Virus record (IMG/VR): IMGVR_UViG_3300048815_000006
Coordinates: 1 to 39,469 of that record
DNA from: a virus
Reading direction: 5' to 3' (one strand)
DNA: 39,469 nt
In this document: one piece after another, positions 3-24,523 of the stretch
How positions within the stretch are numbered: the first letter of the stretch is position 1
How the letters are laid out: each line of letters starts with the position of its first letter
Notes under the pieces: generated by a model
The model's database searches: none
What the model was told of the DNA's origin: nothing
The model's input: the letters and a program-made list of their open reading frames with translations, nothing else
Translations under genes and position numbers: made by a program

Positions 3-2372
3 ACTGCGGCCAGCCAGCATCTCCAGGACATTGAGGCCGGCACCGTTCGCGGCGATCTCGGTTTGGTCGCCAGTGGCGCGGCAGGCTTGACCGATGCCCG
101 ACTGAAGCAAGCGCAACTGCTGTACGGCACCATGTCGCCACAGATGGCCGATGCGGTGCGGGGGAAGGCTGCGGCTGAGGCAATCGAGACCCAAGTCAAG
201 ACGTTGATCCCGACCGATCCCGCAAGAGCATCGCGGATTCTCCAAGCCAATTCGGACAAACTGCCGGCAGCAGCTTATGAGGAACTGAGCCAGCGGACCA
301 AAGCCTACGCCGACGACATGACCCTGACGGGCGATGTGGGCGGCTACATGCGCGGCCAGCCGCCGCCGCGTGCATCTGGAGGCGCGGGGCCAGCGCCATC
401 GGCGAACACGATCCCCGAGCCGCAGCGCGCCGCGCTGTTGCAACAAGCCGTGGTCGGAACACCGATCCCGCCCGCAACGCTCGATGCTCTGGTCAAACAG
501 GAAAGTGGATGGGACGCGGGCCAGCGTGGTTCGGCCGGCGAGATCGGGTTAGCGCAGATCAAGCCGAGCACGGCGACGGCGCCCGGCGTCGGGATGGCCG
601 GCGTGGACCCTACGACACTCAATGATCCCGCTGCCAATCTGAGGTTTGGCGCGCAATATCTGTATGCCCGCGGCAAAGCGGCCGGACTGACGGATGCAGA
701 TTGGAAAGACCCTGCGAAAGTCGCTGTTGTGCTGAAGGAGTACAACGGCGGCGGCGATCCCGATTACGTGCAGCATGTGACGAGCCGTATGGCGCCCGGC
801 GGCGTGTTGCCTGCATCGTATTCCGGCGGTGCTGCACCAGAGATCGGAGCGACGCCGGTCGCCGCACCAGGCACCTCTCCACCAGTCGCGTCTGCGGGCG
901 TCGTCGCGCACAACCCGGCCGGCGTGGACATGCTGGCGCAGAAATACATCGGGGCGAGGGACGAGGCTGCGCGGCTCTACCCGGGCAACTCGGTCATGCA
1001 GGACCGTTTCGTCCAGCGCGTCCATCAGGATGTAAACGAACTGATGATGCTGCAAAACCGCGACGAAGCGGTCCGCGAGAAGGCCCGGAAGGACGCATCG
1101 GAGGCGGCCGGGCAACAGGTCTTGACCACGCTACACAAGAACCCGGGCCAGTTCGATCCGGCGCTGATCTGGAACCAGCCAGACAATGTGATGACGTGGG
1201 AAGAGAAGCAGCATCTGGCCGAGGTCGCCAACTATCAGTTGACGCAGGCCGGCATCGATCCGGTCCATCATGCGGCCGGTTACACCAAAGTGCTGGCCGG
1301 CATCACGGCAGACCCGAGCGCCCCGAACTACATCAATTCGATGCGCGATATCTACAGCCGAGCCGGGGAGGGTGGCGATCTCAACCGCCGCGACGCGGAT
1401 GAGTTGTCCCAGATATTCACCAGGGTCCACAAGGACCCGGATTACGCGACACTGAAGACGCGCGAGGCGTCGATGCTGAAAATAGCCAACCGCGCGCTCA
1501 TGTTCACCGACCCGGAAGTTCCCGACAAATTCCAGACCCCTGATCGCGTGGGCCAGGACATCTTCGACGGACAGTTTGTGCAGACCTATTTGCCGATGGT
1601 CGACAGGGCTGCGGCGACTGGCAAGCCGGACGAACTCGAAAAGGTTCTGAACAAGGATTTCGTGCTCAATCTGGCGCACAGCATGCGGTCGCAGGCCGAC
1701 ATCGACCGAGCCCGGATGGAAGCGACGGGGCAATCCGCCCCGGGCGACGTGGAGAAGCCGGGGACGCCGTTGCCTCCGGTGCCGACGATCCAAGACAAAG
1801 ACGGCAAGCCGGTAACGATCAATCCTGGGGGTTGGGGGACTGTGATGGTGCGCCCCCCAGTTGCAGAGAGCGGCCAACCCTACACGCACGCCGCATGGGC
1901 GACGTATCTCTCCCGGCTCGTGCAGAACCCGGACCCGAAGACGATCCAGTATTTCGACCAGCACTTCGCCGCGCAGGGTTACAGCGGAGCCGACATCGTG
2001 AAGGCCCTCACGACGCCCGCCGGGGGCGCTGCACTGCTGCCGGCGACCGACGAGTTCGGCGGCGGCGGTCCTGCTCCGGCCGCAGGGACGCCCGCAGCAG
2101 TGGCGCCGGCGACCACACACCAACCGACCGGACCCTACACGCTCGAATCCATCGGTGGCGGAGGTGCGTATCGTGGCCAGTTCAAAGTCCTCGACGCCGC
2201 CGGACATGATACCGGCTTCAAGGGCACGCACGATGAAGCACAGGCCGAACTGGCGCGGCTCAATGCGGTGCGGGCCGGCGGGTGGAACCTGCGCCTGCCT
2301 GACCTGGGCATCCACATGCACCACACGCCGGGCGTGATGAGCGGCCTGCCAACGGACCAGACCAAGCCCTGA
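3..2372 (+). CDS. Lytic transglycosylase virion (ejection) protein, 5' end cut by window
   Basis: The frame is open to the left edge, so the gene starts outside the window; the first in-frame start seen (TTG at 63) continues a coding stretch and is not a convincing start. Counting from that TTG, residues about 125-245 form a soluble-lytic-transglycosylase domain. The catalytic Glu is E147 in KQESGWD, followed by GEIGLAQIKPSTA, NLRFGAQYL and KEYNGG. The rest is long helical and Pro/Ala-rich sequence without a recognised domain. A transglycosylase embedded in a large protein just before a membrane-active giant protein suggests an internal virion protein that opens peptidoglycan during DNA entry, by analogy with T7 gp16. 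The stop overlaps the next start (TGATG), so translation is probably coupled. The domain is secure; the virion role is inference. Confidence 0.85.
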   Translation, partial: TAASQHLQDIEAGTVRGDLGLVASGAAGLTDARLKQAQLLYGTMSPQMADAVRGKAAAEAIETQVKTLIPTDPARASRILQANSDKLPAAAYEELSQRTKAYADDMTLTGDVGGYMRGQPPPRASGGAGPAPSANTIPEPQRAALLQQAVVGTPIPPATLDALVKQESGWDAGQRGSAGEIGLAQIKPSTATAPGVGMAGVDPTTLNDPAANLRFGAQYLYARGKAAGLTDADWKDPAKVAVVLKEYNGGGDPDYVQHVTSRMAPGGVLPASYSGGAAPEIGATPVAAPGTSPPVASAGVVAHNPAGVDMLAQKYIGARDEAARLYPGNSVMQDRFVQRVHQDVNELMMLQNRDEAVREKARKDASEAAGQQVLTTLHKNPGQFDPALIWNQPDNVMTWEEKQHLAEVANYQLTQAGIDPVHHAAGYTKVLAGITADPSAPNYINSMRDIYSRAGEGGDLNRRDADELSQIFTRVHKDPDYATLKTREASMLKIANRALMFTDPEVPDKFQTPDRVGQDIFDGQFVQTYLPMVDRAAATGKPDELEKVLNKDFVLNLAHSMRSQADIDRARMEATGQSAPGDVEKPGTPLPPVPTIQDKDGKPVTINPGGWGTVMVRPPVAESGQPYTHAAWATYLSRLVQNPDPKTIQYFDQHFAAQGYSGADIVKALTTPAGGAALLPATDEFGGGGPAPAAGTPAAVAPATTHQPTGPYTLESIGGGGAYRGQFKVLDAAGHDTGFKGTHDEAQAELARLNAVRAGGWNLRLPDLGIHMHHTPGVMSGLPTDQTKP

Positions 2373-5300
2373 TGGCTGACCCCGCTACTCTCGACGCGCC
2401 ACCGACCGGACGCTTGCCGGCGAGCGGAGACCCGTTTGCCGGGATCGACCCCTTCATGGCTGCGGCACCGGCTGCCGCGACCGCGCCTGACCCTGACGAT
2501 CCGTTCGCGGACGCGCCGCCGCTGGCGAAGGGCGAGACCGGCGCCCCTGGTGCCTTCATCTCCCACGCGGCCCGAGGCGTGCTGCCGATGGTCGGCGGGA
2601 TGGCTGCGGCTGGTGCTGGCGCTGAGATCGGCGCCGGAATTGGCGCTCTCACCGGACCATTTGCGCCCGTAGCGGCACCAGTCGGTGGCTTCATCGGTGG
2701 GTTGGCGGGGTTCTTTGCCGGCTCCGCCGCGACTGAGACCGCCCAGGATTGGGCGCTGAAGCAACTCCCGATGGCTGCCCAGGAGGCGGCCGGGCAATCC
2801 GAGCGCGCCCAGCGCGAGCAGGAGATCGAGCACCCCTACGCCTCGTTCATGGGCGGGATCGCCCCATACGCGATCACGATGTCGCCCGGCGGCTGGACCA
2901 AGGGCGCCGCATCGCTGCCTGAGAACGCGACGACGTTCCAGAAGATCATGGCGAACCCGTTGACGGCGAAAGCCTTCAGCGGCGCGATGATGGGCGGCAT
3001 GGAACTCGGCAACGAGTGGACCGAGGGCCAGCCGACCGATTGGGCCAAAGTCGGGATATCGACCGGGTTTGGGTTGATCTTTAGCCACCCCTACCAGCAC
3101 GGCGAGTACCTGACGAATCTTGGCGCCCAGCCTGTCGTCCGGCTGTTCTCGCGAGGCATGGAGGTTCCGCCGGCGGGAGTACTGAACCCCGAGGAGCCAA
3201 CCGTCGCCCAGGCTGGCGATGTCGGCGTGATCGGCCCCGGCATCACCGAACACACCTTTCGTGGCGGCGAGCAGCAGAGCGATGCGACCCGAGCCTCGGC
3301 ACAGAACGCCGCGGCGGATGAGCAAGCCGCGCTGGGACCGCTGCCGACGCCGGACCTGGACGCGATCGCGCGTCGGCTCGACCCCGACACATTCGCGCAG
3401 AACGATGAACTGCTGGCGCAACGGGACGCGCTGCGATCCTGGATCCAGACCGAAAGCAACCCGACCGACGACATGATCGCGCAGGCGACCGCGGCTCGGC
3501 AGGCGATCGACGATCAGTTGGCGGAGACGAAGAACCGGGCTGAACAGCGCCGGCTTCGTGTGCAGCAGCGCGCCGCGCAGGCGGACCTGGATGACCTGAC
3601 CAACCGCAGAGAAGCGTGGGAGAACGGCACGCACGTCGATACGCCGGACATCTCAATGGCCCGGCAGCATCTGTTGGATACCGAGCACGCGCTGTGGGAC
3701 TTGGCGCCGGACATCTCGGCGGCGCGGAGGCGGGCGGCGGATCATGTGGGGGAGGAGCCTGAACCGGCCGCGCAAGAGGTTGCGGCCGGTCACGAGCAGC
3801 CGGCGGCCGAGGTTCCGGAAAAAGGGAGGGTTATTTCGGAACCCGCCGCGCCGGCTGAGAAATCCCCCGACGCGCAACGCGCCTTCATCGCCCAGGACCG
3901 CGCGACGCAACTCATGGCCGCCGGCCTGTCCAAGGCCACGGCAGAGGCGTCCGCAGCCGTTGAGGCTCACTACTACGCGACCCTGGCGGCGCGGTTCAAC
4001 GGCGCCCTGGGGACGGCGGAAGACCTGTATCGAGCGCGAGCCGCGCGTGTCATCGGCCCGGGGCAGACCGCACCGGCCGAAGGTGCGCCGCCGGCGCCGA
4101 TTACCCGCACGGAACCCCTGCGTTCGGCTGCGATCCGGTCCATCGCGGACATCCAGGCGCAGGATGGTGTCGGCGCCAAGCGGGCCAAGGCGATCCAGGA
4201 GCAGGAGATACTGGCACGCGGGCGGGTGATTGAGCCGGGCACCCCGAGGGGCGAGCCGGTTGTGCCGGCCGTCCCTCAAGTTCCATCAAATCCATCAACC
4301 TCCATCAATCCCGCGCCAGTCGAGCGCGCCCCAGAACTCGCCGAAGCCGCGCAAGTCGCCCCGCCAGTGCCTGAACCCCGCCCGCGCCTCCGCAGCGCCG
4401 CCGACATCATGCGCGAGGACCGCGTTCCCGAGAGCCGCGTCAAGGCGGTCCAGGACGCTGAATTGGCGGCCTTGGCCGACTGGCAGGCCCGACACCCATC
4501 CGGGGAGCCTCGCCCGAAGCGCAACCGCGCCGCTGATCGGTTGGCCGAGACCGCCGGCATTCCGACCGCCGGGGTGCCCGAGCCTGCCGTCCTGACCGAG
4601 ATTGTGGACCGGTTGCCGGAAGAACGGGTTGTCGAGGAAGTCAACGCTGCTGCGGAAGCCGGCGAAATCGAGTATCGGGAGGCGGAGGCTGAGGCGCCCG
4701 AAGCGACCGAAACCCCCGACGCCTTCTACGACGCCGACCAGTCCCGCAGCCTGGAGGAATTGGAGAGTGAGCATCGACCGGCAGCGCAATCAGTTGCCAG
4801 CACCCCAGAGCCGGCGTCTCTTGCGGCGCTGATCCCAGAACCAGAGCGCAGGGAGAGTGCCGCAAAAGGGGAGGCGTTGGCAAAAGAAGGGGAGGCATTC
4901 CTCGCACGCGCAGCGGCAGTCGAACGCGAGAAGAACTATCGGGTCGGCGGTCTGACGCGAGAAATCCAGCATGACGCAAACCTACTTCGCGATCTGGCGG
5001 CGGAGCATGCTGCCGGCGATGACCGGCTACTCGAAAAAACACTAGACCGACTGTCACCGCTGCGCGTCGGGAAAACGGCGTACCAAGAAATCGGTATGCC
5101 CGAGGTGCGAGATTGGGAGAACAAGGCATACGAGTGGGCCTATGGCCTGGAAGAGAGGATCGAACGTGCTCGACCGGCGAACGAAGCTGCTGCACCTGAG
5201 CAACGCGAGGGCGGCGGCGGGGAACCAATCGTTGCCACAAGCGACGAGGGACAAGTACCAGAGGGCGGCGGACCAGTTGGGACTGTCGGTGGGACTGGAG

Positions 5301-8300
5301 AACGCGTTGCAGACGAAGGCGGAGAACGAGGCGATGTCGAGCACGCCGTCGCAGCCGCAGGGGTTGGGCCAGACTACCGGCCAGAGCCTGCTGCCGAGCA
5401 GCCCCCCGAGCCAGCCGGAGCAGAGCAAGGAACTGGCGTCCCCCAGCAACCTGCTGGCGTAAGGCGCACAGACGCCCGCGGCAACCCGATCTTCGCCAAG
5501 GGTGAGCGGGTTGTCATCCCGGATGGCGAGCATCTGGCCGGGCGGCATGGGACGGTCGAGGAAGCCAACGGGCTGGTGTTCCAGTCTCTGTATGGCGGCC
5601 AGAAGACGGAGCCGACCTACACTTATCAGGTCCGCACCGATGCCGGCGAACTGGTCCATTCCAATGCGCCGGTAGCCGAGACAGGCGAGCGCCCCGAGGT
5701 CGTGCCCGACCCGATCTACCAGGGTCACGCACGCAACCCGGCGGAACTGCTGCGGCACATCGGCCTGGATGAACGTGCAGCCACCGGATATGTGACGCGC
5801 GGCGCGCGGGCGCGTACCCCGAAGATGAAGGCCGAATGGGCACGCGAGGCAGCCAACTCACGGGACAAGGCTGCGGCGCAGCGGGCCGTGCTGGACGCAT
5901 GGGCGACGGAACATCCCGAGGAAGCCGCCAAGGTCCTGCCGGCGCGGGCCGCCGTTCCCGAAACCCCGAGCGCCGCATCGACTACTCCGGTCGGCGGCAT
6001 GTCCATCGTCGAGACCCGCCACACCAAGCACGGTTACCCGCTGTGGTCGGTGACGCTGAGCGGGGAACGGCTGCCGTTGGATCGATTCAACGAACTGCGG
6101 GGCGCGGCGCGCGAGGGCGGCGGCGACTGGTCATCGTGGCGCGGGCGCGGCGCTGTGCCGGGGTTCCAGTTTCGGACGCGCGAGGCGGCGGAGGCGTTTC
6201 GGGAACGGTTCGGTGGGGAGGGGCCGGCGGCAGAGGCCCCCGCACCGGCTACATCGGCGCGGCCTGAGTGGACCGAGGCCGGCCAGAACGACCGCGGCGA
6301 GACGATCTATACCAACGCGGAAGGCGCTCACTCCGTTATCGAGAACGGCGTCCGGGTCATTGAAGGCGTCGCGCTACGGCCGGTGCGCGATGAGCGGACC
6401 GGGCGGATTTCCTACGTGCCGCAGATCAAGGCGCCCGGGTCCAAGGAACTCCGGTATGAGGTGGTTCCCGAGGCGCCGACCGTTGCTGAGGTGACAGAGC
6501 AAGCCGGCGGAAGCGAATCGCTGCCTCCGCAGCCAGCACCGGCTCCGGAAACTCCGAAGGTCCGCACCATCTCCGACGCGCTCGCCCCCGCCGAGGGGAA
6601 GGGGCCGGCGCCGGTTACGAGTGCGCCAGAGGAAGCCCCTCGCGCATCCAAGGACGTGCAGATCGAGCACGCCGAGCAGATGCCGTTCGAGGACGCGCAC
6701 GACCTTGCAACCGCGCGCCGGATGCTCAACGCCTATCGTGGCGACAAAGGCGTCGAAGCGGCGGTTGCGCGCATTGAGGCGGGCGAGCCGTGGCAGGACG
6801 TGTTCCGCACCGCCAACACGCCGTTCACCGCGTTTGAGACACGCTCAATTGCCGAGGTGGCGCGCGCGGATGGCCGGATCAGGCCACGCGAGGAAGCGCC
6901 AACGCCAGCGCCCCCAGCAGAGGGTTCGGCATACGGCGCCAACAACAAACTCGTCACCCAAGCCGACCGCGAGGCGATCCGCGCCCGGCTCCGCGCAAAA
7001 TCTGGTCAACTCCGCACCGGCATTGACCCGGAAATGATGCTGGATGGCGCCCGTCTCGCCGTCTTCCACATCGAGGCTGGCGCGCGGGCCTTCGCCGACT
7101 ACGCCCGCGAGATAGTCGCCGACATCGGCGTCGAGTTCCGACCCTACCTGCGGTCCTGGTATGAGGCAGCCCGGCATTGGCCGGGCGTCGATGCTCGCGG
7201 CATGACCGCGGCGGGAGAGATTGAGGAAGCCCCCCATGTCGCCGAACGCACCCCGGAAACCCCCGAGGACGTGGCCGACATCGACCAACTGCTTGACACC
7301 CATCGCAACGACCCCATCATCAATGAGATCGCTCGCCTGACCGGGGCCGGCTGGACTCCCGAAGAGATCGAAAACGGTCCGGCTGGCGACCGCTTCTCGC
7401 TCGATGAGATCGAGAGCATCGTTCGTGCCCAGGAACGCCGGGGCGAGATCCCGGAACTCGATGAGGCGGAAGGCCAAGGCGACCTTTCGTTCGAGGAGGA
7501 TGAGGGTGGAGTTCAAGGGGCCGTACCTGTTCGCGATGAGGGAGCAGGACCCGAAGATGTTCATGGAGCTCCGTCGCTCGGGGAAACTGGACGCGCACCT
7601 TCAGGAGAAATCGGTGGAGGCGCACGAACTGCTGAACCAGCTGCTGGCGAAGAAGCCCAAGGACAGGTTCGGGGAGCACAGCCAGGCGGACGTGCGGGAG
7701 GCCGAGGAACTGGTGCGGGCGCAACTGATCGAGTTCCCAACACCGGAGAGGGATCAGCGGCCGGAGCCACCAGACGATTTGCCGACCGTCCGGATGCGGG
7801 CGTCGAAGGATCGAACTTCAGCATCGAGCCAGGCGACCTAGCCGAAGGCCGTGGCCGCACCACCAAGGCGCGGGACAACATCGCGGCCATCGAACTCGCG
7901 AAGCGGCTGATCGACGAAGGCCGGCCAGCCACCAAGGCTGAGCAAGCCATCCTTGTGAAATACACCGGCTGGGGCGGCATCAAGAACGCCTTCCCGGACG
8001 CGCGTGGCGAGTTCCGTCCAGAGATGGAGGACATCGGCCGCCGCCTTCGTGCAGCACTCACCGACGAAGAATACCGCACCGCGCAACAATCGGTGCAGTA
8101 CGCCCACTACACGGCCGAGCATGTCGTCCGCTCAATGTGGGATGCGGTGCGGCAGATGGGCTTTGACGGCGGCCTGGTGTTCGAGCCCGGCCTTGGGGTC
8201 GGGCATTTCCTTGGCCTGATGCCTGCCGATCTTGCCGAAAAGAGCGAATACCAGGGCATCGAGCGCGATCACCTGTCGGCGCAAATCGCGAAGCTACTGT

Positions 8301-11300
8301 ATCCCGAGTCCGGCATCCGCGAGGCCGACTACATCCGAACGCCGGTCCCGGAGGGATCGTTTGATCTGGTGATTGGCAATCCGCCGTTCGGCGACATTAT
8401 CATCAACGGTGATCCGAAGTACGCCGCCCGCGGCTTCATGCTGCACGATTATTTCTTTGCCAAATCGCTCGATAGCGTGCGGCCCGGCGGCCTCCTGGCC
8501 TTCATCACGTCGGCCGGCACGATGAACAAGCTGGACGCCTCGGCCCGGCTATATCTCGCCGACCGCGCCGATCTGGTTGGCGGCATCCGGCTACCGAACA
8601 CGACGTTCCGCCGCAACGCCGGGACTGAGGTGACGACCGACATCCTGTTTTTTCGCAAGCGCGCCCCGGGCGAGGAGGGGATTGAGCCGGCCTGGACCGA
8701 GACCGTCCAGCGCACATTGCCGAGCACAAAGGGCGGCGAGCAAGAAACGAATGTCAGCCGCTATTTCTCCGACCATCCCGAGAACGTGCTCGGCACCGAA
8801 GCGTGGGGCGAAATGCAGGCCGCTGGCCGCTACGAGGTCCAGCAGGTGCCCGGCACTGATCTTGAGGCTGATCTCCGCGCCGCTGTGGATCGCCTGCCGC
8901 GCGATGTGATGACCGCCGCCCCAACGCCGGAAGAACGTGCCCGGCTTGATTTTGCCTCCGGGCAGCGGAAGGACGGCAGCTTCTACGTCGGCGCCGATGG
9001 CAAGCTGATGCAGTACCGGGATGGCGCAGGCCGAGAAGTTCCGGCCTACGGCAAAGGTGGTGGCGGCCTGACCGGAGCGGCCCGCGAGCGCGTCGAGCAC
9101 CTGATCCCGATGCGGGACGCGCTGCGGGACGTGTTTGCCGCGGACCTGGCGCGAGATGATGCCGCCGGCGCAGAGGCGCGGGCGCGGCTCAACGAGCACT
9201 ACGATCGCTTCGTCCAGAAATTCGGCCCTATCAACAAGGCGGAGTTCACCTATCGGCGGCCATCGATCATCCAGCAGGAAACCGCCCGGCTGGAAGCGCG
9301 CGAGGAAGCGCGCATGTCGGACCAGCGGTTCGATGACGGCGAGTTCGATCCGAGTTCCATGCTCGCGAACAAGGCGAAGGTCAGCGAGATCGCCAGGGCG
9401 CGGCAACAGGCCCGCGAGGCAGCAAAGGCCGCAGGACGCGAGTTCGACGAAGGCACATTCGACCCGTCCGCAATGCCGGATGAGGTGTCGGAGAAACGTC
9501 CGAACATCAAGCCGTTCATGTCGGACCCAGAGAGTTACCGGCTGCGATCGATCGAGAATTACAACGATGCCACCGGGGAGGCATCCAAGAAGGCGATCTT
9601 CCGCGAAAACATCCTGAAGCACGAGGAAGAGCCGGAACTGAAATCGGCCAATGACGGCGTGCTCTGGTCGATGAACAAGCTGGGCCGGTTCGACGTTGAC
9701 GCCATCGCCAAGAAGATGAGGCGCGAGCCCGCCGATATCGTCGCTGAACTGGGCGATGCGGTCTACAAGGTGCCTGGCACCGAAGACACTTACCAGACCA
9801 AGGACGAGTATCTGTCGGGTGATATCGTGTCCAAGCTGGAGACGGCGCGGGCCGAAGCTGAAACAGACCCTGACGTGCGGCGCAACATTCCCGCCCTGGA
9901 GGCCGCGCTACCGCCTCCGCTGCCGCCCTCGGAAATCTCGATGGTCCTCGGGATGCCGTGGATACCGACCGACACCCTGCGCGAATTCGTCCGCGATCAC
10001 ATGGAGATGGGCGAGCCGCATATCAGCCACAGCGCCATCACTGGGACATGGTTCGTCAATGGCGGCCGCGCCGCACAGGAAGCCGGCGTCCAGCGATGGA
10101 GCACACCGGACCGCAACGCCTTCGAGTTGCTGTCTGACGCGATGAACCGAACGCCGCCCCGCATCTACGCCGAAGAGCGCGGCCCGCGGGGTGAGAAAAT
10201 CAGGGTGTTCGATCCCGTCGCCACACAGGCGGCGCAGGACGTGACCGACTCCATGAAGGCAGCGTTCACCGATTGGGTTGCCGCCGATCCAGACCGCGCA
10301 AACAGGCTGGCAGACCTCTACAACGATAAGCTGAACAGGACCGTGCTACGTCAGTTTGACGGCAGCTACATGACCACGCCTGGTGTTGCTGCGACATGGA
10401 GTTGGCGCCCACACCAGACGCGGGTGGTGTCCCGCATTGTTCAGACCGGCAACACCTATATGGCGCACGCTGTAGGGGCCGGAAAGACGAGCGCGATGAT
10501 CGGCGCAGGGATGGAGATGCGCCGCCTCGGACTGGTGCGGAAACCGCTCTACGTTGTGCCCAACCACATGCTCGGGCAATTCACCAAAGAGTTCTACGAG
10601 CAGTATCCAACCGCACGAATTGCTGTCGCCGACGAAGATCGGTTCCACACCGACCGCCGCAAGCAATTCGTGGCCAATGTTGCGCAGGACGATCTCGACG
10701 CGATCATCATGACGCATTCGAGTTTCGGCAAGATCGGGATCAGCGACGAGTTCCAGCGCCATTTGATCGATGAGCAGATCGAGATGCTGGACAAGGCGCT
10801 TGAAGAACTGGACGAGCAGGCTGATCGCATCGCTCGGGGCCGGATCGAAAACCAGAAGGAAAAACTTGAGCAGAGGCTGTCTGGCCGCAGCGACGGGCAG
10901 GATCAGACGCTCACGTTCGAGCAGCTTGGCGCCGACTTTTTGTTTGTCGATGAGGCCCACCAGTTCCGCAAATTAAGCTTCGGGACCAAGCAGGGGAACT
11001 TGAAGGGCATCGCGCCCGAAGGGTCCAATATGGCTTGGGACCTCTATACGAAGGTCCGCTATCTCGACAGCCAGAAGCCCGGACGCTCCGCTGTGTTCGC
11101 CTCTGGGACGCCGGTCACCAACACGATGGGCGAACTCTACAGCCTGAGTCGGTTCATGCAGCCCGAGGCCCTGGCCGAGCGCGGATTGACGCACTTCGAT
11201 TCGTGGGCGCAGACTTTCGGCGATACTAAGACAGGTCTGGAAGAAACCGCCGCCGGCACCTATCAGCCGGTCACGCGGTTCGGCCAGTTCGTCAACCTTC

Positions 11301-14300
11301 CTGAGTTGTACAAGATGGTCGGCGAGGTGATGGATATCGTCACCCCGAGCCAACTTGAGCAGTACGTGACGCGGCCAAAGTTGAAGGGCGGCGAGCGCGA
11401 CTTTCACCTCGCCCCGCGCACCGAAATCCTGGATCGCTACCAAGCCGACCTCGCGGCCCGGATGCAGGCCATCAAGGACCGACGCGGGCCGCCGCAGAAG
11501 GGTGACGACATCCTATTGTCGGTCATCAACGACGGGCGGCACGCAGCCATCGACCCACGTTTCGTTGAAGAAACTGACAACGATCCGCGGTCCAAGCTAA
11601 ATGTGATGGTGCAGAACGTCGCGCGCATCTACCACGAAACCGCCGACAAACAGTTCTACGATCCGGCCAGCAACTATGAGCGGGAGAGTTTCCAAGGTCC
11701 GGCGACGCAGATGGTTTTCGCCAATCTGGGCGTGAACGGTCGCGGCCCGATGGGCTTCTCGTCATACCAGTGGATCAAGGAAGCGTTACGCCGAGAGGGC
11801 GTGGCGCCCGAACACATTGCGTTCATCGGCGACTATCCCGGCACGCTTCAGCGCCAAGCCTTGTTCAACGACATGAACGAGGGGAAGGTCCGCATCCTGG
11901 TCGGCTCGACGCAGAAGATGGGCACCGGGGTCAACGCACAGCGGCGCCTCGTCGCGCTGCATAATCAGGACCCGCTCTGGTTCCCAGCCGACGATGAGCA
12001 GCGCGTCGGGCGCATCTTGCGCCAGGGCAACCACAATCCCGAGATCGAGGTCCACGACTACTCGACCAAGGGCACTTACGATTCCGCCATGTGGAAGATG
12101 ATGGGCAACAAGGCCCGGTTCATCGAGCAGTTCTTCCGGGGCGACCCGAGCCTGCGGAACATGGAGGATGTCGGCGAGGCCAGCATGTACGAGCAGGCGT
12201 CGGCGATGGCGACGACCGATGAGCGGATTATCACGCTCACGCAACTCAAACAGGATTTGGACAAGGCCCGGCGACGGGAGTCGGCACACAACAGCGGCCA
12301 GTATGCGCTGCGCTCGCAACTGAAAAACAAAGAGTGGTGGGCCGACTTCGAGGCCAGGTCCGCGGCGTCCATCCAGGAAGATATTGAGAAGCGCGAGGAC
12401 ACCCGAGGCGATAACTTCGCGATGCACGTCGGCGGCGAGAAATTCGACAAACGTAAAGAAGCGGAGGCCGCGCTTAGCGAATTGACCGCAGACCGCGCCG
12501 AGGGCCTAGGCAAAGGCGGTGAGACGCCAGTCGGTCGCATCGGCGGCTTCCCGATCATCATGTCACGGAACACCAAGGGCGCGCTGTCCTTCAACCTCCG
12601 CCTGTCCGGGGGCAACGCCCGTGAGTTAAATTTCAACTGGTACGGCAACAAGTCGGTGCATGACGCCTTTGTGGAGGCCCAGCGCAGGGAGAACGGAGAG
12701 GAGGCTGCTACGAAGGCGGCGGCTTCCCCAATGGGTGCCAAGGGCCTGATCCAATCCGCGGAGCACACACTGCGCCAGTTCGAGGACCGGCTCGCCGCCT
12801 CCGAAGCATCGCGCGCCAGGGCGCTTCGCGAGGCCGACAACATCCGGCCTCTGCTTGGTCAACCTTTCACCGGCGGCGACGAAATCCTGCGTCTATCCAA
12901 TGCCGTACGGGACCTGGAAGGCCAGTTACGGCGCGAGGCGGAGGCCAAGGCCAATCCCGATGCGCCCTCCCCTGAACCGACGCCGGGTATTCCAGCCGAA
13001 CCCACCTCCGCGCTGCCCCGCTGGGAAGGCCCGACACCGGAGGCTGTCTCCGGTTTCATGGCTGGTGGTGGAGATCTGTTCCAACGTCTCCGCCAGTCCA
13101 TCCAAGGCAAAATCCGCATATCCCCCGGCGAAACACGCTCCATCATCACCCTGGCCCGCAGCGCCGACGCCAGCACCTTCATGCACGAGACCGCGCACGA
13201 CTGGCTGAAGCAACTCCTGATGGACGCGGCGCACAATCTCGCCCCCCAGGCCCTCCGAGACGATGCCGCCACGGTGCGTCGCTGGCTGAAGCGTCCCGAC
13301 GCATGGACAGGATTTAAGCGCGATGGTACACCCGATGTAGCGCCCCAAGAGCGTTTCGCCCGTGCGTTCGAGCAATATCTACGCGAGGGTCATGCTCCAA
13401 GCCGGGCGCTGGATGGTGTCTTTGCGAAGTTCAAGTCGTGGCTGACCACGATCTACCGGACGTTGCGCGGACTTGGCGCTCCAATCTCGGACGACATCCG
13501 CGGTGTGTTCGACCGGATGCTGGCGATCGAGCCGGAGCGGATCACCCACGGCGAGGTGCCGGAACGCGGGCCGAGCATCGCGGACATCCACGAGGCCGAC
13601 GCAGCGGAGACGCCGCCGCGCGAGGCCGAGGTAGTCGCGGATCGGATCGCCGCCGAACGTGCCAGGAACCAGCCCCCGCCAGAGGTCGCGCATGAAATCG
13701 CCGCAGTCCAGCCAATCGAGCCAGCCGGCGCCACTCAACCCGGAGCAGAAGCTGCAACTGGCCCAACAGGACGCGGAGAAGTGGCGCCAGGCGGCGGCCA
13801 GCCCGAATCTGTCACCGATGGCAGCGGCGTGGGCGCTGGGACAGGCGCGGTCGGCGCAGGCGGAGGTGAAACTGCGGCAGAAGGGACTGGCGTATCAGGC
13901 GGAACAGGACAATCCAGTGACGCAGGGGGACGACGCGGCACTGAACGTGCTGCTGGGTCTCCCGCTGAACAACTCGCCCCAAGGCCAGCCGAATCCCTCG
14001 ACGACACCGGCGATACAACCGCCGTCGACCTCGCCGGGAATATCCGCGTCGAAAACCTCACCGACGTAGAGAGCATCGCCCAGGCGATTCACGATTCGGC
14101 GGATCGCAACGACGAGTTCCGTCAGGTCCGGGGCGGAATGACCAAGGGCCAGATGCTCGATCTGGCCGAGGCAATGGGGTTAGACCCCAACAAGATCGAC
14201 GAGGCCGGGCTTGCCAGACTGCTCGGCGGCACATCCGAACTTGGGCCGCGCATTTTGGCTGCACGTCGGCTCGTGGTGCAATCGGCCGAGATCGTGTCCA

Positions 14301-16537
14301 ACATCATGAAGCGGGCCGCGCAATCCTGGACCGATGCTGACGGCGCCGAACTCGGGTTGGCGATTGCCCGGCATGACATGATCCAATCGGCGCTTGCTGG
14401 CGTCACTGCCGAATGGGGTCGGGCCGGTAACGCGTTCCACAATCTGCTGGAGGGATGGGGGAAGGCGCAGGACCTGAACCAGTTGCTGCGCGACAATACG
14501 GGGCGCGATCTCTATCAGCTCCAGGTGATCGCCAAGATGGGGTCGCGACTGGACACCCCCGGCAAGGTCTCGAAATACCTCCGGGACGCGAAGAGTCGGT
14601 CCTTTGGCGGCATGATCCTCGAGTACTGGATCAACGGGCTGATCTCAGGCATCGCGACGCATGCCACCTACGTGGTCGGCAACACCATCCTGGCGGCGGA
14701 GAAGGCCGGTCCCGAGACTGCGGTCGCGGCGGCGATCGGCGCCTTCCGGGCCCGGATGGGACGGGTCGGAACCCGGGTCAGGCTCGGGGAGGTGGGCGCG
14801 CAGTTCGGCGCGGCCTTCCGTGAGGCCCCTGCGGCGGTTCAGGCCGGCATCGAGGCGTTGCGCAGCGGCGCCACCACCCAGCTTCCAGGCGAGGCCGCAA
14901 GGCCACTGGTGCCGTTCCAGGGCGATACCTCCCTCACTACAAGCCGGGGCATGACGAACCAGCATGTCACGTGGCGGGAGGTGGGTGCAGACGCCTACGG
15001 GTTGGTGCAGGGGATGCGTGACGGCATCGTGGCGGCCGGCGAATTGGTGCGGGCCGGTGGAGTAGAGGGCGCTCCGACGTGGGGCTGGCAGTCGTCACCG
15101 CTCGGGCAGATACCGGGCTTGGCCTACAAGGGTGTGGAAGTCGCACCCATCGGGCACATCCTGCGCTTGCCGAGTCGGAACGTGGCCGCGATCCATTCGA
15201 CGTTCCGCGCCATGAACTATTCGATGGAGATCAACGCGCTCGCCTTCCGTCAGGCGGCCGATGAAGGATTGGCCGGGGAAGCCTTTGCGGCCAGGGTTTC
15301 CGAACTCCGCCAGAACCCACCCGAGGAAATGATGGACGCGGCGCGGGGTAAAGCAACCGACCTGACCCTGATGGGTCAGGGCGGCAAGCTGACCGAGGCC
15401 CTGAGCCGACTGTTCAACACCACGATCAACCTGCCGGTCCTCGGCGAAACCGCGGTCCTGAAATTCGTCGACCCTTTCGTCCACATCGCCGGCAACATCA
15501 TGAACCAGTCGCTGCTACAGCGGACCCCGGTCGGGCTGCTGTCGCGCGAGATCAGGGCGGACCTGGCCGGCAAGAACGGCAACGTCGCCCAGGATACCGC
15601 GGCGGCGAAGATGCTGGTCGGAACCGCGATTGCGGTCACGTTCGGCGGTCTCGCTGCTCAGGGCTTGGCATCCGGCTCCGGTCCCGCCGATCCAAACAAA
15701 GCCGCGATGTGGCGTCTTGCAGGAAACCAACCGCATAGCGTTCGCATCGGGGATATGTGGTACGCGGTGAACCGGCTCGGCCCGATGGGGCTGCTGCTCA
15801 GTGTCGCGGCCGACATGTACGATGTCGCGCACATGATGGGCACCGAAGACGCCGGGACGATTGGGTCCGCGTTGATGCACGCCTTCACGCAGAACATCCT
15901 GGATGAATCCTTCATGCGCGGGCCGTCAGACTTGATCCGCGCCACCACGGAGTCGGATCGGTACGGGGCGGCCTACATCCGCAACCTGCTGCCGTCGTTC
16001 CTACCGTTCTCCGTCCTGCAAGCCCAGATGGCGCGGGCCACGGACCCTTATTCCAGGCAGGCCCGCACCATCATGGACGCGATCCGGGCGCGGGTGCCAG
16101 GGTTGTCCGAGAGCCTGTTTCCACGCCGGGATATCTGGGGGGAGCCGATGCCGAGTGGCGATGCCCTGATAGCCCCTGGCGTGACGGCCATCTATGCGCG
16201 GCAGATGAGCACTGACCCGGTGAACCTCGCCATGCTGGCGCTCGGCGTGTCGCCGGCCCCGGTCGAGCGGACGATCCGCAACGTGAAGCTGACCGATCAG
16301 GAATATGACGACTACGCAAGGCTCGCCGGCCGGGCTGCGAAGATCAGGCTGGATGCCATTGTGAAATCCCCGCTTTGGGCAACGATGCCGAACGCGAGTC
16401 GCTATGAGGTGATCGAGGAGACGATCAAACAGAACCGTGAGGCGGCTCGTGGCATGATGATGATGAAGTACCCGCAGATTCCGCGCGATGCGGCCAAGGC
16501 GCAGATTGCCCGCAAGACGGGCGAAACGGTGCACTGA
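2372..16537 (+). CDS. Giant polyvalent protein: methyltransferase, SF2 helicase, metallopeptidase, ejection-like ends
   Basis: A single uninterrupted 4721-codon frame. Residues 60-140 are a Gly/Ala-rich hydrophobic segment likely to meet membrane. About 320-460 is charged and helical. About 1210-1290 and 1518-1612 are modules (HTK..., GANNK...IEAGAR) that recur in DarB-like giants. Residues 1817-2090 are an adenine-N6 methyltransferase (SAM loop FEPGLGVGH near 1937, NPPF at 2003-2006). About 2670-3260 is an SF2 helicase (Walker A GAGKT 2702-2706, DEAH 2860-2863, QRVGR from 3210). About 3590-3720 is a metallopeptidase with HETAH at 3605-3609. The C-terminus (3900-4721) has hydrophobic stretches near 4080-4110, 4413-4434 and 4468-4490. 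P1 DarB, a packaged methyltransferase-helicase that protects incoming DNA, is the closest functional model. Virion packaging and ejection are inferred. Three linkers (about 932-1031, 1712-1823, 3774-3900) are low-complexity and overprinted by small genes. Confidence 0.9.
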   Translation: MADPATLDAPPTGRLPASGDPFAGIDPFMAAAPAAATAPDPDDPFADAPPLAKGETGAPGAFISHAARGVLPMVGGMAAAGAGAEIGAGIGALTGPFAPVAAPVGGFIGGLAGFFAGSAATETAQDWALKQLPMAAQEAAGQSERAQREQEIEHPYASFMGGIAPYAITMSPGGWTKGAASLPENATTFQKIMANPLTAKAFSGAMMGGMELGNEWTEGQPTDWAKVGISTGFGLIFSHPYQHGEYLTNLGAQPVVRLFSRGMEVPPAGVLNPEEPTVAQAGDVGVIGPGITEHTFRGGEQQSDATRASAQNAAADEQAALGPLPTPDLDAIARRLDPDTFAQNDELLAQRDALRSWIQTESNPTDDMIAQATAARQAIDDQLAETKNRAEQRRLRVQQRAAQADLDDLTNRREAWENGTHVDTPDISMARQHLLDTEHALWDLAPDISAARRRAADHVGEEPEPAAQEVAAGHEQPAAEVPEKGRVISEPAAPAEKSPDAQRAFIAQDRATQLMAAGLSKATAEASAAVEAHYYATLAARFNGALGTAEDLYRARAARVIGPGQTAPAEGAPPAPITRTEPLRSAAIRSIADIQAQDGVGAKRAKAIQEQEILARGRVIEPGTPRGEPVVPAVPQVPSNPSTSINPAPVERAPELAEAAQVAPPVPEPRPRLRSAADIMREDRVPESRVKAVQDAELAALADWQARHPSGEPRPKRNRAADRLAETAGIPTAGVPEPAVLTEIVDRLPEERVVEEVNAAAEAGEIEYREAEAEAPEATETPDAFYDADQSRSLEELESEHRPAAQSVASTPEPASLAALIPEPERRESAAKGEALAKEGEAFLARAAAVEREKNYRVGGLTREIQHDANLLRDLAAEHAAGDDRLLEKTLDRLSPLRVGKTAYQEIGMPEVRDWENKAYEWAYGLEERIERARPANEAAAPEQREGGGGEPIVATSDEGQVPEGGGPVGTVGGTGERVADEGGERGDVEHAVAAAGVGPDYRPEPAAEQPPEPAGAEQGTGVPQQPAGVRRTDARGNPIFAKGERVVIPDGEHLAGRHGTVEEANGLVFQSLYGGQKTEPTYTYQVRTDAGELVHSNAPVAETGERPEVVPDPIYQGHARNPAELLRHIGLDERAATGYVTRGARARTPKMKAEWAREAANSRDKAAAQRAVLDAWATEHPEEAAKVLPARAAVPETPSAASTTPVGGMSIVETRHTKHGYPLWSVTLSGERLPLDRFNELRGAAREGGGDWSSWRGRGAVPGFQFRTREAAEAFRERFGGEGPAAEAPAPATSARPEWTEAGQNDRGETIYTNAEGAHSVIENGVRVIEGVALRPVRDERTGRISYVPQIKAPGSKELRYEVVPEAPTVAEVTEQAGGSESLPPQPAPAPETPKVRTISDALAPAEGKGPAPVTSAPEEAPRASKDVQIEHAEQMPFEDAHDLATARRMLNAYRGDKGVEAAVARIEAGEPWQDVFRTANTPFTAFETRSIAEVARADGRIRPREEAPTPAPPAEGSAYGANNKLVTQADREAIRARLRAKSGQLRTGIDPEMMLDGARLAVFHIEAGARAFADYAREIVADIGVEFRPYLRSWYEAARHWPGVDARGMTAAGEIEEAPHVAERTPETPEDVADIDQLLDTHRNDPIINEIARLTGAGWTPEEIENGPAGDRFSLDEIESIVRAQERRGEIPELDEAEGQGDLSFEEDEGGVQGAVPVRDEGAGPEDVHGAPSLGETGRAPSGEIGGGARTAEPAAGEEAQGQVRGAQPGGRAGGRGTGAGATDRVPNTGEGSAAGATRRFADRPDAGVEGSNFSIEPGDLAEGRGRTTKARDNIAAIELAKRLIDEGRPATKAEQAILVKYTGWGGIKNAFPDARGEFRPEMEDIGRRLRAALTDEEYRTAQQSVQYAHYTAEHVVRSMWDAVRQMGFDGGLVFEPGLGVGHFLGLMPADLAEKSEYQGIERDHLSAQIAKLLYPESGIREADYIRTPVPEGSFDLVIGNPPFGDIIINGDPKYAARGFMLHDYFFAKSLDSVRPGGLLAFITSAGTMNKLDASARLYLADRADLVGGIRLPNTTFRRNAGTEVTTDILFFRKRAPGEEGIEPAWTETVQRTLPSTKGGEQETNVSRYFSDHPENVLGTEAWGEMQAAGRYEVQQVPGTDLEADLRAAVDRLPRDVMTAAPTPEERARLDFASGQRKDGSFYVGADGKLMQYRDGAGREVPAYGKGGGGLTGAARERVEHLIPMRDALRDVFAADLARDDAAGAEARARLNEHYDRFVQKFGPINKAEFTYRRPSIIQQETARLEAREEARMSDQRFDDGEFDPSSMLANKAKVSEIARARQQAREAAKAAGREFDEGTFDPSAMPDEVSEKRPNIKPFMSDPESYRLRSIENYNDATGEASKKAIFRENILKHEEEPELKSANDGVLWSMNKLGRFDVDAIAKKMRREPADIVAELGDAVYKVPGTEDTYQTKDEYLSGDIVSKLETARAEAETDPDVRRNIPALEAALPPPLPPSEISMVLGMPWIPTDTLREFVRDHMEMGEPHISHSAITGTWFVNGGRAAQEAGVQRWSTPDRNAFELLSDAMNRTPPRIYAEERGPRGEKIRVFDPVATQAAQDVTDSMKAAFTDWVAADPDRANRLADLYNDKLNRTVLRQFDGSYMTTPGVAATWSWRPHQTRVVSRIVQTGNTYMAHAVGAGKTSAMIGAGMEMRRLGLVRKPLYVVPNHMLGQFTKEFYEQYPTARIAVADEDRFHTDRRKQFVANVAQDDLDAIIMTHSSFGKIGISDEFQRHLIDEQIEMLDKALEELDEQADRIARGRIENQKEKLEQRLSGRSDGQDQTLTFEQLGADFLFVDEAHQFRKLSFGTKQGNLKGIAPEGSNMAWDLYTKVRYLDSQKPGRSAVFASGTPVTNTMGELYSLSRFMQPEALAERGLTHFDSWAQTFGDTKTGLEETAAGTYQPVTRFGQFVNLPELYKMVGEVMDIVTPSQLEQYVTRPKLKGGERDFHLAPRTEILDRYQADLAARMQAIKDRRGPPQKGDDILLSVINDGRHAAIDPRFVEETDNDPRSKLNVMVQNVARIYHETADKQFYDPASNYERESFQGPATQMVFANLGVNGRGPMGFSSYQWIKEALRREGVAPEHIAFIGDYPGTLQRQALFNDMNEGKVRILVGSTQKMGTGVNAQRRLVALHNQDPLWFPADDEQRVGRILRQGNHNPEIEVHDYSTKGTYDSAMWKMMGNKARFIEQFFRGDPSLRNMEDVGEASMYEQASAMATTDERIITLTQLKQDLDKARRRESAHNSGQYALRSQLKNKEWWADFEARSAASIQEDIEKREDTRGDNFAMHVGGEKFDKRKEAEAALSELTADRAEGLGKGGETPVGRIGGFPIIMSRNTKGALSFNLRLSGGNARELNFNWYGNKSVHDAFVEAQRRENGEEAATKAAASPMGAKGLIQSAEHTLRQFEDRLAASEASRARALREADNIRPLLGQPFTGGDEILRLSNAVRDLEGQLRREAEAKANPDAPSPEPTPGIPAEPTSALPRWEGPTPEAVSGFMAGGGDLFQRLRQSIQGKIRISPGETRSIITLARSADASTFMHETAHDWLKQLLMDAAHNLAPQALRDDAATVRRWLKRPDAWTGFKRDGTPDVAPQERFARAFEQYLREGHAPSRALDGVFAKFKSWLTTIYRTLRGLGAPISDDIRGVFDRMLAIEPERITHGEVPERGPSIADIHEADAAETPPREAEVVADRIAAERARNQPPPEVAHEIAAVQPIEPAGATQPGAEAATGPTGRGEVAPGGGQPESVTDGSGVGAGTGAVGAGGGETAAEGTGVSGGTGQSSDAGGRRGTERAAGSPAEQLAPRPAESLDDTGDTTAVDLAGNIRVENLTDVESIAQAIHDSADRNDEFRQVRGGMTKGQMLDLAEAMGLDPNKIDEAGLARLLGGTSELGPRILAARRLVVQSAEIVSNIMKRAAQSWTDADGAELGLAIARHDMIQSALAGVTAEWGRAGNAFHNLLEGWGKAQDLNQLLRDNTGRDLYQLQVIAKMGSRLDTPGKVSKYLRDAKSRSFGGMILEYWINGLISGIATHATYVVGNTILAAEKAGPETAVAAAIGAFRARMGRVGTRVRLGEVGAQFGAAFREAPAAVQAGIEALRSGATTQLPGEAARPLVPFQGDTSLTTSRGMTNQHVTWREVGADAYGLVQGMRDGIVAAGELVRAGGVEGAPTWGWQSSPLGQIPGLAYKGVEVAPIGHILRLPSRNVAAIHSTFRAMNYSMEINALAFRQAADEGLAGEAFAARVSELRQNPPEEMMDAARGKATDLTLMGQGGKLTEALSRLFNTTINLPVLGETAVLKFVDPFVHIAGNIMNQSLLQRTPVGLLSREIRADLAGKNGNVAQDTAAAKMLVGTAIAVTFGGLAAQGLASGSGPADPNKAAMWRLAGNQPHSVRIGDMWYAVNRLGPMGLLLSVAADMYDVAHMMGTEDAGTIGSALMHAFTQNILDESFMRGPSDLIRATTESDRYGAAYIRNLLPSFLPFSVLQAQMARATDPYSRQARTIMDAIRARVPGLSESLFPRRDIWGEPMPSGDALIAPGVTAIYARQMSTDPVNLAMLALGVSPAPVERTIRNVKLTDQEYDDYARLAGRAAKIRLDAIVKSPLWATMPNASRYEVIEETIKQNREAARGMMMMKYPQIPRDAAKAQIARKTGETVH
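5166..5462 (+). CDS. Overprinted small gene A inside the giant gene (+1 frame), 98 aa
   Basis: Start GTG at 5166 is preceded by GAGAGG with a 7-base spacer; an ATG at 5142 in the same frame lacks such a site. A hand count gives G or C at about 90 of 98 third positions in this frame. The overlapping giant frame here reads as Gly/Ala/Glu/Pro-rich filler. The product begins with a helical segment (about residues 2-50, LDRRTKLLHLSNARAAAGN...) and ends in a Gln/Ser/Pro-rich tail. The TAA stop at 5460-5462 lies where the giant frame again becomes ordinary domain sequence. No family is recognised. The reading frame is well supported by codon bias and ribosome site; expression is untested. Confidence 0.7.
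   Translation: MLDRRTKLLHLSNARAAAGNQSLPQATRDKYQRAADQLGLSVGLENALQTKAENEAMSSTPSQPQGLGQTTGQSLLPSSPPSQPEQSKELASPSNLLA
7506..7841 (+). CDS. Overprinted small gene B inside the giant gene (+1 frame), 111 aa
   Basis: GTG at 7506 follows AGGAGG (7494-7499) with a 6-base spacer, an excellent ribosome site; an in-frame ATG at 7500 touches the site and is less likely. About 84% of third positions are G/C by hand count, against about 36% in the giant frame over the same bases. The product is a normal-looking helical protein: EFKGPYLFAMREQDP, then LRRSGKLDAHLQEKSVEAHE, then REAEELVRAQLIEF and an acidic Pro-rich tail. The segment with SGKL...L followed by an EAEE-type helix loosely recalls small TnpV-like proteins, but this is only an impression. 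TAG at 7839-7841 lies exactly where the methyltransferase domain begins in the giant frame. Confidence 0.8.
   Translation: MEFKGPYLFAMREQDPKMFMELRRSGKLDAHLQEKSVEAHELLNQLLAKKPKDRFGEHSQADVREAEELVRAQLIEFPTPERDQRPEPPDDLPTVRMRASKDRTSASSQAT
13692..14069 (+). CDS. Overprinted small gene C inside the giant gene (+1 frame), 125 aa
   Basis: ATG at 13692 has AGAGG 6 bases upstream. A GTG at 13659 is in frame but has no clear ribosome site. About 79% of third positions are G/C by hand count. The encoded protein has a Ser/Gln-rich start, a helical centre (NPEQKLQLAQQDAEKWRQ, then MAAAWALGQARSAQAEVKLR) and a Pro/Ser/Thr-rich tail. The giant frame over the same bases is a Gly/Ala/Thr repeat-like linker. 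The TAG stop at 14067-14069 immediately precedes the start of the C-terminal ejection-like part of the giant protein. Its layout (short helical region plus disordered Pro/Ser/Gln tail) resembles overprinted gene A. Function unknown. Confidence 0.72.
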   Translation: MKSPQSSQSSQPAPLNPEQKLQLAQQDAEKWRQAAASPNLSPMAAAWALGQARSAQAEVKLRQKGLAYQAEQDNPVTQGDDAALNVLLGLPLNNSPQGQPNPSTTPAIQPPSTSPGISASKTSPT

Positions 16538-24271: not shown

Positions 24272-24512
24272 TGCCGCCCATGCTGCAATGTCGGATAGTC
24301 AGTTGCAAACCGACATTTCCGACCCCCACACCCCCGCCATAATCGCAGCCCACCGCGACGCAGCCGAGATGCTGTCCGGCCTCCCCGAACCGGCGCGGGC
24401 GGTGTGCGCTGCTGTGGCTCGGCGGTTTGCGGAGAGGGCGGCGGAGTTGGAGCAGAGTGAGGGATTCGAACCCATCGACCCTTCGCTTGGAAGGCGAACG
24501 CTCTACCGCTGA
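24264..24512 (+). CDS. Hypothetical protein whose 3' end is antisense to a tRNA gene
   Basis: ATG 24264 (or 24288) overlaps the previous gene. Up to about residue 64 the product is a normal small helical protein (IIAAHRDAAEMLSGLPEPAR, VARRFAERAAELEQ). The last 20 or so residues are simply the translation of the complementary strand of tRNA-Gly, and the TGA stop lies in the tRNA D-arm region. This suggests that the tRNA was inserted or recruited at the gene's 3' end, replacing the original tail and stop. Function unknown. Confidence 0.5.
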   Translation: MGNAAHAAMSDSQLQTDISDPHTPAIIAAHRDAAEMLSGLPEPARAVCAAVARRFAERAAELEQSEGFEPIDPSLGRRTLYR

Positions 24513-24523
24513 GCTAACCCTGC
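24448..24523 (-). tRNA. tRNA-Gly (UCC), CCA encoded, one extra base in the T stem
   Basis: Read on the minus strand, the acceptor arms GCAGGGT and ACTCTGC pair over 7 bp (one G-U). The D arm is GCTC AGCGGTA GAGC. The anticodon arm is TTCGC CTTCCAA GCGAA with anticodon TCC. The T arm carries TTCGAAT and the discriminator T is followed by encoded CCA. With a standard 5-base variable loop, the 5' T-stem strand is GATGGG against CCCTC, so one U is bulged. The fold is otherwise complete. It lies downstream of two minus-strand genes and is probably cotranscribed with them. The bulge raises doubt about aminoacylation or elongation competence. Confidence 0.85.

Follow-up and report, generated by a model that had tools for sequence, protein, structure and literature searches.

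Rz1 within Rz is a known example of a phage gene nested out of frame inside another gene, and long out-of-frame nested genes are usually thought to be rare and young. DarB and related polyvalent proteins carry a methylase-SNF2 dyad. In phage P1, darB begins with the methylase module, and no nested gene is seen ahead of it. TnpV (PF14198; Tn4451, Tn6104) is a transposon gene in Tn4451, and a role in excision has been postulated for it by homology with lambda Xis (in an excerpt of PMC3158075). Here we describe a DarB-like giant gene in a viral DNA of 39,469 bases (IMG/VR record IMGVR_UViG_3300048815_000006, positions 1 to 39,469; this whole stretch is called the window below). In the linkers of this giant, the same DNA very probably also encodes small proteins in the +1 frame, one of which, N2, resembles TnpV.

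The window giant has both the dyad and homology to phrog_10089, and it differs from P1 darB in having N2 upstream of the methylase module. Like Rz1, N2 is a small gene in another frame within a larger gene and has its own start. Unlike Rz/Rz1, the host gene of N2 encodes a giant of 2000–5000 amino acids (aa) and the overlap falls between domains, in a linker; moreover, N2 or TnpV is paired with its giant both in phages and in mobile elements, across different phyla. Rz/Rz1 pairs do appear in the phage record tables examined. A term search of the main text of a 2017 survey of polyvalent proteins (PMC5512222) found no mention of TnpV or of "overlapping", and none of the open-access titles and abstract openings on DarB-like proteins and overlapping genes describes such nesting.

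The giant gene and its nested reading frames

A single open reading frame (ORF) of the window (2372–16537, + strand) encodes the 4721-aa giant, an N6-methylase fused to an SF2/SNF2 helicase with extra N- and C-terminal modules. Residues 1286–3535 match phrog_10089 ("DarB-like antirestriction", E = 0), the Eco57I and ResIII domains score above the Pfam cut-off, and phrog_6651 ("internal virion protein") matches near the C-terminus. The giant can with good confidence be predicted to be a virion-type DarB-like polyvalent protein.

The sequence-only reading had placed three small genes in the +1 frame of the giant, each within a low-complexity linker, and both points were borne out: N1, N2 and N3 all lie in that frame and overlap linkers rich in Gly, Ala, Pro and Glu. 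N1 (5166–5462, +; 98 aa) starts at GTG 5166, with an alternative ATG at 5142, after a weak Shine-Dalgarno-like AGAGGA (5154–5159, a match of only 4 nucleotides, nt). N2 (7506–7841, +; 111 aa), predicted to encode a TnpV-like helical protein, has a ribosome-binding site and start of its own, with AGGAGG (7494–7499) 6 nt ahead of GTG 7506. N3 (13692–14069, +; 125 aa) begins at ATG 13692, and the sequence has a Shine-Dalgarno-like GAGGT before it (13682–13686). Over all three, the peak of guanine-cytosine content (GC) by codon position flips from the third position of the giant to its first, which is the third position of the nested frame. The difference is 0.41 for N1, 0.44 for N2 and 0.26 for N3; across 382 other segments of the giant it reaches 0.18 at most, and a log-likelihood ratio of codon usage singles out the same three sites (7–8 for N1, 23–24 for N2 and 22.6 for N3).

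The three differ in how far they can be followed. A single homologue of N1 was identified, nested in +1 within the giant of locus L054 (46% identity across 50 aa; its purine-rich motif and its start resemble those of N1), no homologue of N3 was found, and scans of the viral contigs with N1 and N3 as queries gave no matches. NCBIfam offered no useful name for any of the nested proteins. N1 and N3 are, as far as these searches reach, lineage-restricted, and N3 is a probable gene, the evidence for it being its codon composition. A further +1-frame ORF with a Shine-Dalgarno start lies inside module 1 of the giant (3744–4229, +; 161 aa); it lacks the strong third-position GC flip of N1–N3 and may be a shadow ORF.

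N2 in phages and nested TnpV in Firmicutes

A tblastn search with N2 matched 18 of 21 giant-bearing viral contigs, and the three unmatched contigs (L007, L021 and L022) start within the methylase. In total N2 was located at 45 loci, which form 31 clusters at 90% identity and 26 at 70%. At every one of them it lies wholly inside the giant, in the +1 frame and just upstream of the methylase, with the methylase frame open across it (45/45). Its aligned start is ATG or GTG, usually directly after AGGAG(G). The annotated phages with N2 are BcepIL02, JC1, Itty13, Pavtok, LASTA, VvAW1, Mwe-JY07, POI1126 and Atu_ph08; a subgroup B query found N2 in 21 phage records, and USP_25 has a +1 island at the N2 position that the seeds did not match. 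No plasmid was found with an N2-type query. The giants of the Bcep22-like phages (BcepIL02, JC1) and of LASTA, Pavtok and VvAW1 are of the same type as that of the window and hold N2 in the same place and frame, and their records annotate the giant alone. Indeed, N2 is listed as a gene of its own in none of the phage record tables examined; in that of PBC5 it forms the C-terminal end of gp22. In the record of Pseudomonas phage Itty13, most of the giant is covered by genes annotated on the other strand, which is probably an annotation error.

The likeness of N2 to TnpV comes from profiles and models. In a profile-profile alignment (hhalign), the N2 group matches TnpV with a probability of 89.5 and E = 2e-6 over 64 columns, and N2 in the record of L002 gives a Pfam TnpV match of E = 2.4e-4, under the cut-off. 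The AlphaFold models of N2 (pLDDT, the predicted local distance difference test, 80; helices 4–14, 16–25, 28–48 and 60–74) and TnpV (pLDDT 89; helices 26–38, 40–48, 52–77 and 87–110) have four helices in the same order, as compared by helix order without superposition, and the N-terminal hairpin of TnpV is absent from the N2 model. Fold searches turned up nothing convincing for either model, and neither matched a PDB entry; when the TnpV alignment was searched against the sequences of solved structures, a single weak match emerged, to a designed protein.

Sub-threshold TnpV matches, together with an ORF lying off frame in a Listeria plasmid, pointed on to Firmicutes. The 86 giant loci examined comprise the best 80 of 573 from a genome scan with the methylase, a choice that favours Firmicutes, like the query, together with L058–L063. 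TnpV matched at 75 of the 86, nearly all from Firmicutes, and at 70 of these 75 it lies in the +1 frame and is fully spanned by the giant. The GC of the nested loci ranges from 28 to 57%. Training of the local TnpV model included the loci that it later scored, which makes its E-values too favourable; PF14198 as such was applied to three nested plasmid copies, to the L002 record and to a set of genomes drawn evenly from the phylum. The three plasmid copies, in Cohnella herbarum, Listeria and Enterococcus, score 106, 28.7 and 67 bits against PF14198, all over the cut-off. In the C. herbarum plasmid, an annotated "TnpV protein" stands in the +1 frame inside the open frame of a giant that is missing from the gene table used; the table of the Listeria plasmid lists the giant only, and the Enterococcus record is unannotated.

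By these comparisons, the same nesting, in frame and in relative order, is shown for phages and for Firmicutes mobile elements, where the small gene is a bona fide TnpV. A TnpV-like protein is also found in a human fecal phage (L056, giant at 2228–11770), nested in the +1 frame about 3.9 kilobases upstream of the methylase, and this copy groups with a Blautia copy on the tree. Separately, TnpV-bearing cargo elements have been reported to insert into an snf2 gene in integrative and conjugative elements of Streptococcus suis (an excerpt of PMC9815147); a connection with TnpV nested in snf2-type giants would deserve attention.

Constraint on the nested frame and rival explanations

Start signals and coding constraint both set N2 and TnpV apart from chance frames. 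A Shine-Dalgarno match of at least 5 nt precedes the nested start at 15 of 22 phage loci and 43 of 67 Firmicutes loci (64–68%), compared with 2.6% and 2.9% of off-frame ATG/GTG controls; the Firmicutes starts were set by distance to the domain. The phage starts were set by homology and in part from the motif itself, which pushes the phage figure upward. For the open-frame test, loci with a full-length domain were taken, 22 of the 45 with N2 and 67 of the 70 or more from Firmicutes. When the nested protein was held fixed and its codons were resampled, the giant frame stayed open on average in a fraction of 0.11 in phages and 0.005 in Firmicutes, and the third frame is open at none of the 22 and none of the 67 loci. 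When the two readings of the same DNA are compared between relatives, the nested protein is the more similar of the two in all 21 Bacilli pairs (identity 0.77 against 0.65 for the giant frame) and in 44 of the 55 pairs of phages (0.50 against 0.42). Within the overlap the nested frame is thus conserved above that of the giant, whose linker is therefore the looser reading. At the level of sequence, these comparisons show N2 to be a gene under constraint of its own, wholly nested and with its own Shine-Dalgarno sequence and start.

Several observations weigh against this reading of the linkers and of N2. In the window alone, off-frame ORFs of at least 60 aa with a Shine-Dalgarno start number 3, with 1.95 expected (P = 0.355), and the case for the nested genes therefore rests on conservation. 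The loci are kin, so their counts are not independent. A codon permutation that keeps the codons of the nested gene gives milder values than resampling (0.33 in phages and 0.10 in Firmicutes). Five of the 75 TnpV loci are not spanned by the giant, and 11 of the 86 loci have no TnpV match, several of them on contigs that end inside the giant. N2 itself scores 16.5 bits (E = 0.0085) against PF14198, below the Pfam cut-off of 27 bits, and is therefore filed as TnpV-like and not as a member of the TnpV family; subgroup B matches TnpV weakly (hhalign, 47%). At two of the unspanned loci, L067 and L138, TnpV and the methylase are spaced just as, or almost as, in an intact relative, an indication that these frame breaks are recent.

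The strongest rival, and that of the sequence-only reading, is that neighbouring genes fused into the giant, with N1, N2 and N3 as old neighbours overprinted in the seams. Its modules lend it some weight. Module 1 (2372–5165, +) has a relative only in L054 among the compared loci, and many giants of phages share module 2 (5463–7505, +), there encoded in one ORF with the methylase. Module 3 (7842–13691, +), the methylase-helicase block plus a further domain, also occurs as a gene by itself, in P1 and on plasmids of Agrobacterium, Rhodococcus, Lichenicola and Aminobacter. Module 4 (14070–16537, +) resembles internal virion protein D of T7-like podophages (phrog_6651; best tblastn E = 2e-26, 25% identity), a separate gene in other podophages, and among the loci compared it is present in the window only. 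Module changes between relatives fall at the seams, and modular assembly of the giant fits this distribution, the stand-alone module 3 and the separate homologue of module 4. The claim that domain blocks resume at the nested stops stood for N2 (stop at 7841, methylase homology from 7901); for N1 and N3 the codon pattern does change back there, and recognisable homology follows only some 500 and 900 nt later. Conservation of the linkers in the giant frame would have spoken against fusion, and the nested frame was found to be the more conserved instead. TnpV also exists free-standing, both among the loci surveyed below and in the excerpt of PMC3158075 cited above.

What counts against fusion is that the expected relatives did not appear. 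Viral contigs, phages, plasmids and genomes yielded no relative with separate modules and a small gene between them; the only split forms were the stand-alone module 3 (P1 and plasmids) and PBC5, in which the N-terminal half of the giant reads directly into N2. PBC5 was rejected as an ancestral split because small indels just upstream of N2 separate it from Atu_ph08; the split looks like a frame slip or a sequencing error. All N2-bearing phage loci are nested. The help that high GC was supposed to give in keeping shadow frames open is not required, for the overlap persists at 28–38% GC.

Free-standing TnpV looks derived on the trees. A survey of 35 loci gave 32 distinct located TnpV copies (two had no match and one was a duplicate), of which 19 stand alone and 13 are nested in the +1 frame, 17 of the 32 being from genomes reached via nested loci; among the 15 in the evenly drawn genomes, 9 are nested and 6 alone. 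In a tree of 63 rows, built with every second Firmicutes nested locus and without domains shorter than 95 aa, the free-standing copies take up three separate positions among the nested ones. When the N2 group of the window was added, with phage rows cut to 80 aa and without L058 and L098, which have long branches, or the phage copy L056, that group joined the nested side. The trees have 116 columns, long branches and weak rooting, and we read them as leaning towards nested-first with free-standing copies derived, and no further. With free-standing TnpV inside the nested diversity and the phage copies on the nested side, the data do not point to a recent fusion with small genes stranded in its seams. 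Overall, ancestral fusion keeps its modular part, namely that modules 3 and 4 occur separately and that seams are module changes, and loses ground for want of any intermediate; as a whole we consider it rather unlikely. The overlap between N2 or TnpV and the giant looks old, since no relative was found whose modules are separate and flank the small gene, and since, on a weak tree, free-standing TnpV lies within the nested diversity.

Programmed frameshifting, in which ribosomes on the giant slip into the N2 frame and yield a truncated giant with an N2 tail, would account for the constant +1 relation and for the PBC5 half that runs straight into N2, and Shine-Dalgarno-like stretches can promote slippage. 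It is improbable, given the start codon right after a Shine-Dalgarno sequence at the aligned domain start in most loci, the existence of TnpV as a stand-alone gene, and the lack of a common slippery site upstream on inspection by eye. That the nested frames are shadow ORFs, by-products of high GC, is suggested by their chance-level number in the window and by the lack of an N3 homologue, and is most improbable as a general account, since N2 is conserved across 31 clusters (which rules out a chance ORF in its case), nesting occurs at 28–38% GC and nested copies reach Pfam-level TnpV; for N3 such an origin is possible, and for N1 less so.

Some other features were observed in and around the giants. 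Upstream of the window giant, an ORF that is open at the window edge (3–2372, +) has a transglycosylase (SLT) domain, and a tRNA-Gly gene (anticodon tcc) lies at 24448–24523 (–). Additional +1 islands occur in the N-terminal half of the Burkholderia JC1 giant (L025, about 6694–6918) and the Erwinia Pavtok giant (L026, about 5416–5700), near the C-terminal part of the giants of L002, L017 and L019, and after the helicase in L031 and L038; the last two share an "LKQARQIIREK"-like end and may represent another conserved nested family. The giant frame of L018 ends early relative to its close relative L017, with the coding signal continuing in +1, as after an indel.

A possible role for the pair and its significance

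Under the preferred reading, that linkers of the giant double as coding sequence, ribosomes would start internally on the messenger RNA of the giant and make N2 as a separate helical protein of about 110 aa, and the giant frame would read the same DNA as a disordered linker. Less certainly, and as a guess, N2 may be a partner of the giant, in its folding, in keeping it inactive in the producing cell or in its packaging, and the overlap may hold the pair together during module shuffling. The postulated role of TnpV in excision offers no obvious explanation for its place inside anti-restriction giants. A wider scenario is tentative, and we would put it forward as quite possible without expecting it: TnpV and N2 would be one ancient family that lay in the +1 frame inside DarB-like giants before the phage and Firmicutes giant lineages parted, the free-standing TnpV of transposons would be later escapees, and the nesting would have been kept since the small protein is a dedicated partner that travels with the giant.

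Over a GC range of 28% to 70%, the nested gene persists in phages of Proteobacteria and of a cyanobacterium and in mobile elements of Firmicutes. Annotation tends to list one of the two genes only, and the nested arrangement has mostly been left out. A hidden component is thereby added to a well-known class of polyvalent anti-restriction proteins, TnpV gains a genomic partner, and the pair offers a natural test of two frames kept open for very long times.

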